Shown here: positions 29,487-35,247 of the stretch, piece after piece
How the letters are laid out: every line of letters begins with the position of its first letter
Numbering within the stretch: position 1 is the stretch's first letter
Assembly: GCF_009911795.1 (NCBI RefSeq)
Contig: NZ_CP047898.1
Span: 2,604,001 to 2,668,000 of the forward strand
Length of the DNA stretch: 64,000 nt
Direction of reading: 5' to 3'
Origin: Pseudarthrobacter psychrotolerans
Lineage (GTDB): Bacteria; Actinomycetota; Actinomycetes; Actinomycetales; Micrococcaceae
Notes under the pieces: generated by a model
Seen by the model: only the letters and a program-made list of their open reading frames with translations
Told to the model about the DNA's origin: nothing
Databases searched by the model: none
Made by a program: the position numbers and the translations under genes

Positions 29487-31295
29487 ATGGCCAAGCAGAC
29501 CTCATTTTTCAGATCCATCAGCCGTCTTTATCCTCACGTGAGGCCGATCATCCCCCGGCTGGTGATGGGGCTACTCTGCGCACTCCTGGCCAGCCTCGTG
29601 GCGCTGACCATTCCGCAGGTGCTGCGGGTCCTCGTGAATGAGTCCCTCAAACCCGGTGGCGTGTCGGACGCCGTCTGGACTGCCGCCGTCGTAATCCTGG
29701 TCCTGGGCATCGCCGAGGCGGGACTCGTGGCCCTCCGCCGGCAGTTTGTGATCAACCCGGCCACCACTGTGGAAACCCGGATGCGGGTCTCGCTGTACGG
29801 GCACCTGCAGGACCTGACCGTTTCCTTCCACGACCGCTGGGGCTCCGGCCAACTGCTGTCACGCGCCATGACGGACCTGAACTTCCTCCGCCGCTGGATG
29901 GCTTTCGGTGCCATCATGCTGGTGGTCACCACGCTCACGGTGGTCATTGGCATTGCGGTCATGTTCTCCATGAGCTGGCAGCTGGCCCTGATCTTCCTGG
30001 CCGCGGCGGTGCCCATCATGGCGTACGGTTTCCGGTTCCGGACCCGCTTCAGCAAGGTGGCGCGGCGGAGCCAGGACCAGGCCGGCGACCTCGCCACCAC
30101 TGTGGAGGAATCCGTCCACGGCATCCGCGTCCTGAAGGCCTTCGGCCGCAGCCGCGAGGCCCTGGAGAACTTCAACGAGCAGGCCGAGGAACTCCGCCAG
30201 ACGGAGATTGTGAAGGCAAAGCACCAGGCGACTTTCACCATGGTGGTCACCCTGCTGCCGGAACTCGCGCTCGGCGCCGGGCTGGTGGTGGGCGTGATGC
30301 TCTGCGCCAGCGGCCAGCTGAGCATCGGCGCCCTGGTGGCCTTCTTCGCCACAGCTGCGGTCATCGCGACGCCGGTGGAATTCTCCGGCATGCTACTGGC
30401 TATGGCACTCACTGCCAAGTCCGCCGTCGACCGCCACTTCGAGGTCATGGATTCGGTCAACACCATCACCAGTCCCCCGGAGCCGCGCACCCCCTCGCAG
30501 CTGAAGGGCGCGCTCAGCTTCAACAACGCCACGTTCGCGTTCGAGGACGCACCGGACAAACCCATCCTCAAAGAGATCAACCTGGACGTCCGGCCGGGTG
30601 AAACCATGGCACTGGTGGGCATCACGGGCAGCGGGAAGAGCGCGCTGATCCAGCTGGTCCCGCGCCTGTACGACGTCACCGACGGCTCCATCACCATCGA
30701 CGGCGTGGACCTGCGCGAGTTCGACGTCGACGGGCTCCGGCGGGTGGTGGGCGTCGCTTTTGAGGACACCACACTGTTCTCCAATTCGGTCCGCGACAAT
30801 GTGCTTCTCGGGGCGCCGGACCGCAGTGAGGAAGCCCTGGACGAAGCCCTGGATGTGGCGCAGGCGCACTTCGCGTACTCGCTGCCGGAAGGCGTGGATA
30901 CGCTCATCGGCGAGGAGGGCCTGAGCCTGTCCGGCGGGCAGCGGCAGCGGATTGCCCTGGCCCGGGCCATCGCGGCGCGGCCCCGGGTCCTGGTGCTGGA
31001 CGATCCGCTCTCGGCCCTGGACGTACACACCGAGGAGCTCGTGGAAACCAGGCTCCGCGCGGTCCTGAAGGACACCACCACCCTGATCGTCGCGCACCGC
31101 CCGTCCACCGTGGCGCTGGCCGACCGGGTGGCGCTGCTCGAAGAAGGCCGGATCGCCGCCGTCGGAACCCACACCGAACTTCTGGCGCACAACCCCCATT
31201 ACCGCTACGTCATCGCCAGCCTGGACCAGGAACCACGGGACCTGGATTCGGAGCTGTCCGAGCTTGAGGACGAGTCAAAGGACAGCATCCGATGA
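29487..31295 (+). CDS. ABC exporter subunit 1 (degenerate catalytic Glu)
   Basis: A 602-residue half-transporter: six membrane helices then an ATPase domain. Walker A is GITGSGKSA, the signature is LSGGQRQR, and Walker B reads [12 protein letters not shown]. Asp stands where the catalytic Glu should be, as in the degenerate site of heterodimeric exporters such as TM287/288. The stop overlaps the next gene by ATGA. The substrate (lipid, drug or peptide) is unknown. Confidence 0.9.
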
Positions 31296-33232
31296 GCAGC
31301 GCAACCTTCGGCACCGCCAATGAGGACAACACGCACCTCAGCAAGGCGGACAGCAAAACCGTACGACGGCGGTCACTCGCCCTTTTGGCCACGCTGATCC
31401 GTCCCGTGCGGCTCAGGTTCTGGCTGACCATCGCCACCGTGGTCCTGTCCCAGGCCGCGCGGGTCGCCGGGCCGGCGCTGATCGCGTTCGGCATCGACCA
31501 CGCGCTTCCCGCGCTGCAGGCGGGCGACAACCTCCCGCTGGTCCTCACCGGCGTCGCCTACCTGCTCGCGGCGATCGCGACGGCGGGGCTCACCGCCCTG
31601 TACGTCACCTCCACCGCGCGGCTCAGCCAGGCGATGCTGCTGGACCTGCGCGTCCGGGTCTTCCGGCACACGCAGCGCCTGAGCCTGGAGTTCCACGAGA
31701 AGTACACGTCCGGCCGGATCATTGCCCGGCAGACTTCGGACCTGGAGGCGCTGCGCGAACTCCTCGATTCCGGTGTCAGCTCCCTGGCCTCTGGGCTGCT
31801 GTTTATGGTCTTCACGGCCGTCACGGTGTTTGCCCTGGACTGGCGCAGCGGCCTGATCGTGCTGGCCGCGGGCGTCCCCATGTACTTCCTGTCGCGCTGG
31901 TACCAGAAGCACTCCCAGATCGTGTTCCGTGAGTCCCGCGTGGTCTCCGCCCGGCTGATTGTGCACTTTGTGGAAACCATGACCGGGATCCGCGCGGTGA
32001 AGGCCTTCCGCAAGGAAACCGAGAACGCCGGGAAGTACGGCCAGCTGTCCGAGGACTACCGGCTGGTCACCGTGCGCTCCATCAACCTCAACGGCATATT
32101 CCAGCCCGGCCTGGTGCTGATCGGCAACGTCTGCGTGGCCGTGGTGCTCCTGTTCGGCGGGTTCCGGGTCCTGGGCGGGGACCTCGCCGTGGGCGTGCTG
32201 CTGGCGCTGATGCTTTCCACCAAGCGCTTTTTCCAGCCGGTGGACCAGATGGCCATGTTCTACAACTCCTTCCAGAGTGCCCAGGCGGCCCTGGAGAAGG
32301 TCTCCGGCCTGCTGGAGGAGGTTCCCACGGTCCGCCCGCCCAAGAACCCCGTGGCGCTCCGCGATGCCCGGGGAACCATCGACTTCAAGGGTGTGGAGTT
32401 CGGCTACGGCGACGGCCCGGTCATCATTCCCGTCATGGACCTGCACATCCCTGCCGGCCAGACCGTGGCCCTGGTGGGGCAAACGGGCGCCGGCAAGTCG
32501 ACCCTGGCCAAGCTGATCGCCCGCTTCTACGACGTCTCCTCAGGCTCCCTGACCCTTGACGGAGTGGACCTGCGCAGCCTGACCACCACGGACCTGCGCC
32601 GGAACATCGTGATGGTCACCCAGGAGGCGTTCCTGTTCAGCGGCTCCGTGGCGGACAACATTGCCCTGGGCCGGCCCGAAGCAACCCGTTCGGAAATCGA
32701 GGATGCCGCCCGGGCCGTGGGCGCCCACGAATTCATTACCGAACTCCCCCAGGGCTATGACACGGATGTCAACAAACGCGGCGGCCGGGTGTCCTCCGGG
32801 CAACGGCAGCTGATCAGCTTCGCCCGGGCGTTCCTGGCCCGGCCTGCCGTGCTGATCCTGGACGAGGCCACCTCGTCCCTGGACATCCCCTCCGAGCGGC
32901 TCGTCCAGAGCGGGCTGGCGCGCCTTCTGCGGGCAACGTCCGACGCCGGCAGTCCGGCAGGCGCGCCGGACGCTGCTGAGGCGGGTTCGACTGCGGGGTC
33001 CGCCGCGGCCGGGTCTGCGGCGCCGGGCTCTGCGGCTGCCGGCTCTGCTGCTGCGGGAGGCGGCCGGACGGCGCTGATCATCGCGCACCGCCTCTCCACT
33101 GTCGAAACTGCCGACCGCGTCCTGGTGGTCCACGACGGCCGTGTGGTCGAGGACGGCACCCCCGCAGAGCTCATCGGCGGCGGCGGACGCTTCGCAGACC
33201 TCCATGGCGCCTGGAAGGACTCCCTGGTCTAG
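31292..33232 (+). CDS. ABC exporter subunit 2
   Basis: A 646-residue partner of the preceding subunit. Walker A is GQTGAGKST and Walker B ([12 protein letters not shown]) keeps the catalytic Glu, while the signature is the variant VSSGQRQ. A low-complexity insertion of about 40 Ala/Gly/Ser/Pro residues (near codons for [16 protein letters not shown]) interrupts the ATPase between the D-loop and the H-loop ([10 protein letters not shown]). Most relatives lack it. Confidence 0.9.
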
Positions 33233-33401: not shown

Positions 33402-33478
33402 CGGGATGTGGCGCAGCTTGGTAGCGCGCGTCGTTCGGGACGACGAGGTCGCAGGTTCAAATCCTGTCATCCCGACCA
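33402..33478 (+). tRNA. tRNA-Pro (anticodon CGG)
   Basis: The acceptor stem CGGGATG pairs with CATCCCG. The anticodon arm CGTCG-TTCGGGA-CGACG shows anticodon CGG (codon CCG). The T arm has GGTTCAAATCC and CCA is encoded at 33476-33478. Confidence 0.95.
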
Positions 33479-33514: not shown

Positions 33515-33575
33515 TGCATCTCCCGGCCGTCACGGAACCGGCCGGAGAACAGTCACGTATCCGGACAAAGAAATA

Positions 33576-33606
33576 GCCCCGGGGCATGATGACCATGCCC
33601 CGGGGC
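33576..33606 (-). terminator. terminator of the peptide gene
   Basis: GCCCCGGGGCAT at 33576-33587 pairs perfectly with 33595-33606 across a 7-base loop. On the minus strand it is followed by TATTTCTTTG. It lies 21 bases after the stop of the small secreted peptide gene. Confidence 0.75.
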
Positions 33607-33627
33607 CGCGCCCCCTAAGAGGATTCC

Positions 33628-33840
33628 TTACATCGGGTCGGGCCAGTTGCCCACGTATGTGGTGTAGGTCGTGCCGGTCTTGTCCTTGACGGGCTTGGAC
33701 ATGGGATCAGGCCAGTTGCCAACGGCTACGGATACGCCGGTGGTGTCGGCGATGGAACCTGCCGACAGGACAGCCGGGGCCGCCGCAGAAAATGCCAAGG
33801 CAGCAGCGAGTACGCCAGCGGCCGCAATCTTCTTCAACAT
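33628..33840 (-). CDS. small secreted peptide precursor with duplicated VGNWPDPM (putative pheromone)
   Basis: A 70-residue protein. A Sec-type signal peptide (MLKKIAAAGVLAAALAFSA, cleavage probably after the APAVLSA segment) is followed by about 40 residues holding VGNWPDPM twice, at 40-47 and 63-70. The second copy ends the protein. The two copies are encoded by different codons (GTT/GTG, CCT/CCC, GAT/GAC, CCC/CCG) without any residue change. ATG 33840 follows GAGGA. The gene has its own terminator and diverges from an HTH-TPR regulator. I infer a signalling peptide released from the C-terminal repeats; activity is unproven. Confidence 0.75.
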   Translation of the reverse strand: MLKKIAAAGVLAAALAFSAAAPAVLSAGSIADTTGVSVAVGNWPDPMSKPVKDKTGTTYTTYVGNWPDPM

Positions 33841-33972
33841 ATAAGTTCCTCAATACGAGTCGGATTCGTTACAAAGTCAGCACTGTCCTTGTTGACATAC
33901 ATTGTAAAATGTTTTCCACAGGGACTGTCAAGCATTGAGTACAAAGACTGTCCAGAATTAGGAGGAAAACCC
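33841..33972. promoter_or_regulatory. shared divergent regulatory region of peptide and HTH-TPR genes
   Basis: This 132-bp, relatively AT-rich region contains ACTGTC three times in direct orientation (33882-33887, 33924-33929, 33947-33952). Two of these lie in related longer repeats beginning ACAAAG (33871, 33941). A 14-bp dyad ACATT-GTAA-AATGT lies at 33899-33912. Minus-strand TTGACA with TACAAT 19 bp downstream is a possible promoter for the peptide gene. These are candidate binding sites for the adjacent regulator. Confidence 0.5.
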
Positions 33973-35247
33973 GTGGGCAACGGATTCGGGGAGAAGCTCC
34001 GTGCGGAGCGTCTCGAACGTGGGCTGACACAGGCTGAACTGGGCAGGGACCTGTATTCCCCCAGTTATATCTCCCTCCTCGAAACCGGCCGCCGCGAGCC
34101 GACGGCCGAAGTGATCGAGGAGCTTGCCCGCAGGCTGGAGCTGGCGCCCAAGGCGCTGGAAGCCTGGAGCCAGCCCATCACAGTCAGCGACGCCGAGTAC
34201 GTCCTGGCCGGCCTCTACGCACGCCAGGCCTGGGACCTCAGGGACTATCCGCTGGCTGCCACGCACGCAGCCAACGCAGCCCAGATAGCCCTGGAGGGCA
34301 AGAACACCAGCGCGTGGTGGAACATGACCTACATGCAGGCCGAATGCCTGATCAAACAGGGCAACTGGCAGGAATGCCAAAAGATCATGCAGCACCTCCT
34401 GGAGCACCCGATGGCCACCGAGTCTGCCGGCCTGGCCGTCCGTGCCCGCCAGATGCTAGCCGCTATCTGCCAGGGACAGGGCCAGCTGAGCACTGCCGTG
34501 GAGCATGCCCTGGCGGCCGTCCAACTTTGCGGCCAGCTGCCCAACGGTTCCACCCTGATCATCGGCGCCTACCGTGCGCTGATCGGCGCGCTGGCGGAGA
34601 GCGGCCGCCTGGACGAAGCCTGGAAATACTGCCAGGCCATGAATGACCAGATGGACGAGCACTCCATGTCCCAGCTCGCCGGTGAGGTTGCCTGGGTGAT
34701 CGGCAACGTGGCCTTTATGCGGCACGATTACCCCGAGGGCATCAACTACCACGAGCGCGCCGCCCGGATGCTGTCTCCAGCCAACGACATCGATCTGTGG
34801 GCCCGTTTCAACAAGGCCTCGGCCGCCGTCCGGCTGTCCTCCGGAATCGTTGAACCGGAAACGCTCTCCAGCATCGAGCGCGCCGAACTGGCGCTGTCCA
34901 TTGTGGGCGGCAACAAGAGCGACGAGCTGGAAGTTGCGTTCATCCGGGCGCGCTGGCTGTATCTCACCGGCGACATCGTGGCTGCCATCAACAAGCTCCG
35001 CGAGATCCACTCGGAACTGGGGGCTCTGGCCAAGCACACGGCAGGGGAGGTCTCACTCCTGCTGGGCAAATCGCTGAAGGCTGCCGGCGAGTCCGACGAA
35101 GCCCTGGTCTACCTCGAAGAAGCGCAGAAGGCCTTCAGCGCCGCGGGAGCCTCGGACCGCGTCCAGCAGGCGCTGGACGCGGTCCTTGAGATCAGGCTTG
35201 CCCAGCAGCGGGCCGCCGCAGCAGCGAAGGACTCCAAGGCAAGCTAG
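33973..35247 (+). CDS. HTH-TPR transcriptional regulator (RRNPP-like architecture)
   Basis: A 424-residue protein. An N-terminal XRE-type helix-turn-helix (LRAERLERGLTQAELGRDLY ... ISLLETGRREPT) is followed by about 350 residues of helical repeats of TPR type (for example ALIGALAESGRLDEAWKYCQ and LGKSLKAAGESDEALVYLEE). This is the architecture of peptide-sensing Rgg/PlcR/AimR-type receptors. GTG 33973 is chosen because AGGAGG lies 7 bases upstream; the 28-residue upstream extension overlaps the operator region. It is divergent from the peptide precursor, its likely ligand. Confidence 0.85.
   Translation: MGNGFGEKLRAERLERGLTQAELGRDLYSPSYISLLETGRREPTAEVIEELARRLELAPKALEAWSQPITVSDAEYVLAGLYARQAWDLRDYPLAATHAANAAQIALEGKNTSAWWNMTYMQAECLIKQGNWQECQKIMQHLLEHPMATESAGLAVRARQMLAAICQGQGQLSTAVEHALAAVQLCGQLPNGSTLIIGAYRALIGALAESGRLDEAWKYCQAMNDQMDEHSMSQLAGEVAWVIGNVAFMRHDYPEGINYHERAARMLSPANDIDLWARFNKASAAVRLSSGIVEPETLSSIERAELALSIVGGNKSDELEVAFIRARWLYLTGDIVAAINKLREIHSELGALAKHTAGEVSLLLGKSLKAAGESDEALVYLEEAQKAFSAAGASDRVQQALDAVLEIRLAQQRAAAAAKDSKAS

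Follow-up and report, generated by a model that had tools for sequence, protein, structure and literature searches.

A candidate secreted-peptide and HTH-TPR receptor pair in Pseudarthrobacter psychrotolerans, with related gene pairs elsewhere in Actinomycetes

The divergent gene pair

We analyzed a stretch of 64,000 nucleotides from Pseudarthrobacter psychrotolerans (contig NZ_CP047898.1, positions 2,604,001 to 2,668,000 of the forward strand), here denoted the window, in whose numbering all coordinates are given. Within the window, a small open reading frame (ORF) ending in the residues VGNWPDPM lies divergent from a gene encoding a protein with an XRE-type helix-turn-helix (HTH) domain and tetratricopeptide repeats (TPR). 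An earlier note on this DNA, made from the sequence alone, had proposed that the two constitute a peptide pheromone and its receptor, as in RRNPP systems. The features of the locus are the following.

33575 to 33607, minus strand: intrinsic terminator of the precursor gene, a 15-pair stem with a T-rich tail
33628 to 33840, minus strand: candidate pheromone-precursor ORF, 70 amino acids, ATG start, two VGNWPDPM copies, kept in 80/80 named loci
33631 to 33654, minus strand: C-terminal VGNWPDPM copy, residues 63-70, from sequence and motif conservation
33700 to 33723, minus strand: inner VGNWPDPM copy, residues 40-47, from sequence and motif conservation
33892 to 33932, no strand assigned: operator-like block TTGACA-N3-ATTGTAAAATG ... 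TGTCAAG, from the intergenic alignment of 80 loci and the window, with a putative operator role
33973 to 35247, plus strand: XRE-HTH and TPR regulator, 424 amino acids, proposed receptor, from Pfam, the PlcR profile, the structural model and its fold

The small ORF begins with a charged start followed by a hydrophobic stretch, a predicted Sec-type leader as judged by inspection and by our own hydropathy score. Both VGNWPDPM copies were found where the earlier note had placed them, and they are spelt differently in DNA, indicating that the repeat is not chance. The gene has its own terminator, as the note had also claimed, with a folding energy of -38.1 kcal/mol and a z value of -3.2 (stem 33607-33575), and the intergenic gap of 132 bp (33841-33972) was read as described. 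Two further matches to the motif at the DNA level in the same genome are antisense or out of frame within other genes and were rejected as chance.

The regulator starts with GTG at 33973, preceded by AGGAGG. Pfam recognized an XRE-type HTH domain, with TPR_12 and other TPR families above the cut-off, and the predicted structure is all-helical, with a predicted local distance difference test (pLDDT) score of 94.5. A profile of the receptor matched PlcR over residues 4-206 with an E value of 9.8e-11, and structure comparison demonstrated that the predicted fold resembles those of Rap (Rap-Phi3T), NprR and AimR. The closest named relatives, judged by the regulator, belong to Arthrobacter and Pseudarthrobacter.

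Conservation of the motif and of the block between the genes

We compared the window with 80 named loci whose regulators are 83-98% identical to that of the window. A divergent precursor ORF was found in all 80, at a start-to-start distance of 124-144 bp. Counting every copy that retains at least 4 of the 7 residues of GNWPDPM yielded 219 copies, 197 of them perfect; in these, G, W and D are retained in 219, N in 216, both prolines in 213 and the last M in 200, while 6 decayed copies read GNWADQL. The 21 motif bases of the same copies occur in 71 DNA spellings. A stricter pattern in which G, W, P, D and P are fixed gave 213 copies with 111 spellings of 24 bases, distributed as two copies per precursor in 36 loci, three in 23, four in 17 and one in 4. 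The motif forms the exact C-terminus of the precursor in 77/80 loci; the other three (L068, L069 and L072) retain an inner copy only. The linkers between copies are variable, 93/125 being distinct, with lengths of 2-25 residues.

As a control, we searched the 733,361 bp of the 80 loci for a Sec-like start combined either with WP close to the C-terminus or with xWP in repeated form, a rule devised after the precursors were known. Among 6390 small ORFs, of which 224 are Sec-like, there were 77 matches, all of them the precursor ORF; single-copy precursors were missed by the rule. The kept protein motif under 71 DNA spellings and this 733-kb control together indicate that the small ORF is a gene, selected, as far as sequence can tell, for its peptide at the protein level. 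That it is merely chance or a non-coding repeat, as the labels of its relatives in database entries (hypothetical or low-complexity proteins) might be taken to imply, is hardly credible in view of the same two results.

The intergenic alignment demonstrated a conserved block in which TTGACA-N3-ATTGTAAAATG and TGTCAAG are separated by a spacer of 14 bp, kept in the 80 loci. Searching 41 congeneric genomes, we found exactly one such site in each (41/41) at up to 2 mismatches; allowing 3 mismatches added 5 sites over the 41 genomes, compared with 4 matches for a reversed control pattern, and the genome of the window has a single site with up to 3 mismatches allowed. In 30/30 of the loci read among the 41 sites, the site is located between the HTH gene and a GNWPDP precursor. 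One site per genome, placed between the two genes, suggests that the promoter region on which the regulator acts is likely its own. No strict sigma-70 promoters were found at the locus.

The block also follows the peptide among more distant HTH receptors of the family, in which a core reading TTGTAAA or CAGTAAAAT is present in 18/34 loci with a precursor vs 1/33 without; the lone core-bearing receptor scored without a precursor is L229, for which inspection gave a candidate. In a set of peptide-less HTH receptors 43-48% identical to that of the window (L163, L165, L168, L173, L174, L177, L178, L181, L184, L185, L187, L189 and L213), we observed that the core is degenerate or missing; such receptors are perhaps orphans, or their precursors lie elsewhere.

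Pairing of putative receptors and peptides in the family and the class

The regulator is matched in 130/245 genomes of the window's family, which we assigned to Micrococcaceae from the names of related records. We examined the first 30 matches with loci and then the upstream DNA of the next 100 rows. Within the same genus, the precursor search matched beside the regulator in 18/18 genomes; in the next genus it did so in the 12 with listed loci, some of these matches being weak (E up to 0.09). Of the next 100 receptors, 66 have a precursor, comprising 35/67 with an HTH domain and 31/33 that consist of TPRs only; this count includes L170, L171, L175 and L229, which were missed by the classifier and scored positive on inspection, and the two TPR-only misses are doubtful (L162 has a truncated start, and only part of L238 is present). 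With a narrower rule, 54 of the 100 loci were positive on the divergent strand vs 4 on the other. The signals vary around the motif of the window, reading VGNWPDPS, GIWPNS, FVGNWPDA, WIWPDS, GEWPHS, GDWPHS, IGWWPN, VNNWPY, VGSWPF or IDNWPN. A search for downstream peptide genes of 20 receptors that have no upstream precursor gave nothing convincing, leaving a few chance-looking WP ends (L247, L259 and L263) and hydrophobic ORFs without WP.

When 28 TPR-only receptors were scanned, no HTH family appeared among the 25/30 Pfam families listed, and the rest match at most one member. In a quickly built tree of 84 receptors, the HTH state, called from protein length and match start, changes once. 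Lacking a DNA-binding domain, these receptors would need a protein partner instead of DNA. In the TPR-only receptors within L192-L246 (e.g. L195, L204 and L207), we noticed that the precursor mostly ends in one copy of the signal (WPN, WPY or WPF). The signal classes fit the receptor tree better than 500/500 shuffles, a fit that linkage alone could produce, and conserved residues are nearly alike in receptors with and without a precursor (N245 in 45/45 vs 16/19), which lends little support.

In one clade, the precursors are 19-23 residues long, have no Sec leader, end in VGDWPD or VGNWPD and adjoin HTH receptors (L194, L197, L199, L202, L210, L212, L221, L226 and L230). Such precursors are what one would expect if the peptide never left the cell that makes it and served the regulator there as a cofactor or anti-activator, with no signal secreted. 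We consider this quite improbable for the system as a whole; Sec-type leaders are predicted for precursors of the window's clade, of the TPR-only branch and of family f24 (below), and absence of a Sec leader need not mean retention, as SHP propeptides exit the cell without Sec, through PptAB, according to excerpts of PMC10075063.

With a profile, 39 of 394 genomes of the class were matched at E <= 1e-20, and we examined 26 of the 45 match rows, all outside the window's family. A divergent Sec-like ORF with a repeated or C-terminal WP was found in 10/26 loci vs 1, 0 and 0 in three other neighborhoods. The signals include GGSWP three times (L312), repeats of DIEWP, DIGWP and DISWP (L314, L316 and L320), ALNWPKCC (L318) and APDWPVMCC (L330); L323, L327 and L329 have Trp-containing C-termini that fall outside the rule, and the remaining loci were negative or doubtful. 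Of 14 loci scanned in family f26, 5 have an ORF in which a Sec-like leader is combined with IDWP, IEWP or DIEWP; it is divergent in L341 and L353 and co-directional with the receptor in L347, L348 and L349. L342 was positive in the class-level scan (as L316), L344 and L345 have a terminal WP but no clear leader, and the rest were negative or doubtful. Among plasmid records of Streptomyces, Kitasatospora and Embleya (13 of 40 read), repeat precursors were found in 3/13: Streptomyces sp. NBC_00342 (IGWP four times), Kitasatospora sp. NBC_01266 (IGWP six times) and Streptomyces sp. NBC_00158 (IDWP three times). In NBC_00342 and NBC_01266 the precursor gene is convergent and downstream of the receptor, in NBC_00158 it is divergent, and all three products are annotated as hypothetical proteins; no repeat precursor was seen in the other 10 loci.

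Family f24 presents a different type of signal. The receptor is found in 45/80 genomes, and a divergent Sec-like ORF accompanies it in 30/30 loci read (L363-L392), compared with 3 co-directional Sec-like ORFs upstream, none co-directional downstream and 4 convergent. The leaders of these precursors have a mean identity of 37% and their C-termini of 8%; all 30 C-terminal hexamers are different, and 24/30 end in Cys-Cys. A conserved leader followed by 30/30 different C-termini makes signal-receptor coevolution directly testable.

The TPR-only branch and f24 bear on an alternative in which the secreted repeat peptide has an effector function of its own, envelope-active or antimicrobial, say, and the HTH-TPR protein is only the regulator of its local expression. 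An operator-like block that is essentially unique per genome is expected of a regulator serving this pair alone, and tandem repeats are found in secreted effectors too. We regard this alternative as unlikely, although the least so of those considered. A mere repressor role leaves unexplained why the peptide is kept beside 31/33 receptors of the TPR-only branch, and the hypervariable C-termini that follow conserved leaders in f24, as well as an HTH-TPR architecture matching PlcR, also speak against it. We read the small ORF of the window as the likely precursor of a pheromone, exported by Sec and present in several copies, and the XRE-HTH/TPR protein encoded divergently as its likely cytoplasmic receptor; on the evidence of sequence, we consider such an RRNPP-like pair probable.

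Likeness to known systems and the proposed signaling

Like PlcR of the Bacillus cereus group, the window receptor is an XRE-HTH protein with TPRs, its profile matching PlcR as described above, and in PlcR/PapR a small secreted propeptide is likewise encoded beside the receptor. Unlike PlcR/PapR, the pair belongs to another phylum, has a Trp-Pro signal in tandem copies and a divergent gene order, and shows one strong operator-like site per genome, whereas PlcR has many PlcR boxes. NprR/NprX and AimR/AimP share a similar predicted TPR superhelix, and there too the precursor gene adjoins the receptor gene; they differ from the actinobacterial, chromosomal pair in their signal motif. Rgg/SHP resembles it in the HTH-TPR receptor and, for one sub-clade here, in short precursors without a Sec leader, but most precursors here have a predicted Sec-type leader, and the Rgg/SHP signal sequences are unrelated to those described. 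Resemblance to Rap/Phr lies in the fold of Rap-Phi3T, in more than one pheromone per propeptide and in the TPR-only branch, which, as Rap, has no DNA-binding domain; the window receptor differs by its HTH domain, and its copies are near-identical, numbering 1-4 in the window's clade and more in distant clades. In the Rap/Phr systems of phages Phi3T and Phi105, duplicated propeptides yield several mature pheromones differing in binding affinity, as stated in the abstract of PMC11343458. RRNPP systems are described in excerpts of PMC10075063 by a TPR receptor of 250-500 amino acids, an adjacent propeptide gene of 10-100 amino acids, and export by Sec or, for SHP/PrgQ, by PptAB; the regulator, with 424 amino acids and TPRs, and the directly neighboring 70-residue ORF, 132 bp away, both fall within these ranges.

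Rap/Phr of phages and the arbitrium system AimR/AimP, which is carried by temperate phages, differ also in location. The locus here is chromosomal (a 4.96-Mb contig of a 5.17-Mb assembly) and lies beside a tRNA-Pro (33402-33478) near the precursor gene. In the collections searched, no phage record matched, no phage-borne relative was found and no viral contig was confirmed; Foldseek on viral models returned mainly TPR, Sel1 and other repeat proteins, and matches in PHROGs and PADLOC were limited to the HTH part. On these searches, a phage or viral origin was rejected. Beyond the tRNA, an ORF of the window at 31292-33232 encodes an ABC transporter whose ATPase portion contains, close to its end, a low-complexity insert of Ala/Gly/Ser.

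Several observations weigh against the pheromone interpretation or its extent. In sequence, designed pentatricopeptide repeat (PPR) proteins outscore PlcR as matches of the receptor, and in fold other TPR proteins score equally or better; PlcR, Rgg and PrgX were not among the 50 structure matches listed (VIA-align). Membership in RRNPP by descent is no more than likely. The expectation of the earlier note that a small ORF is always adjacent to the regulator held in the 80 named loci, in the 18 congeneric genomes and in the 12 from the next genus, but failed in 32/67 more distant HTH receptors, which have no recognizable neighbor peptide, many of them being paralogues or one sub-clade. Further, 12/35 HTH positives are short ORFs that lack a Sec leader, each of them weaker evidence (L183, L188, L190 and the nine loci of the leaderless clade given above). 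The note had also counted on the repeat being kept in close relatives; 4/80 precursors are single-copy, yet one copy is always retained. As to natural products, distant Streptomyces receptors (L270, L357, L358 and L360) adjoin genes for a SARP regulator, a ketosynthase, a non-ribosomal peptide synthetase (NRPS) or condensation domains, and among these four a recognized repeat precursor was found only at L270, beside SARP regulator genes. On balance, the pheromone/receptor interpretation of the earlier note is supported, and the pairing is wider than it proposed.

The ORF with its leader-like start, the divergent gene order, the block kept between the genes and the repeated motif with its protein-level conservation can be read from the DNA; from what is known of RRNPP systems, we infer the following course. 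Sec would export the precursor, extracellular cleavage would give (V/I)GNWPDPM or GNWPDPM, and an oligopeptide permease would re-import the peptide; the genome encodes 13 SBP_bac_5 proteins, which makes import possible, no more. The mature peptide, GNWPDPM or VGNWPDPM in the window, would be bound by the neighboring regulator, sitting in the concave TPR surface, and would alter the seating of the HTH on the intergenic block, thereby controlling the precursor and receptor genes. With several copies in each precursor, the dose of signal may be higher. The TPR-only branch would act without DNA binding of its own, and the class-wide relatives would share the architecture with other Trp-Pro or Cys-Cys signals, as separate private channels.

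The claim of the earlier note that such pairs are little described in actinobacteria agrees with our literature search, in which neither this pair nor RRNPP signaling in actinobacteria was found described in open-licence literature, preprints not being covered. According to excerpts of PMC10075063, RRNPP detection was applied to Firmicutes and viruses, actinobacterial signals are typically small molecules made by enzymes, and encoded peptide signals are placed in Firmicutes. The excerpts of a review of actinobacterial quorum sensing (PMC4748050) treat cyclic or modified peptides and butyrolactones in general terms and name no propeptide/TPR-receptor pair, and the term 'actino' is absent from the text of a paper on RRNPPA evolution (PMC9765709). 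Our best reading is that the pair would work like an RRNPP system, of a kind undescribed for actinobacteria in the literature searched.

Extending this to the class, we think it reasonably likely, with somewhat less confidence than for the pair itself, that Actinomycetes use a peptide language of RRNPP-like HTH-TPR and TPR-only receptors, each with its own secreted peptide, either of the Trp-Pro type (GNWPDPM, GWWPN, IDWP, IGWP and others) or hypervariable and ending in Cys-Cys, amounting to dozens of private channels, some beside Streptomyces biosynthetic genes. As relatives are found beside SARP, ketosynthase, NRPS and condensation-domain genes, such peptides might control natural-product clusters. 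If true, actinobacteria would possess a large private-channel peptide language whose candidate signals can be read from the genome, and each of which could be checked with a cheap synthetic peptide.
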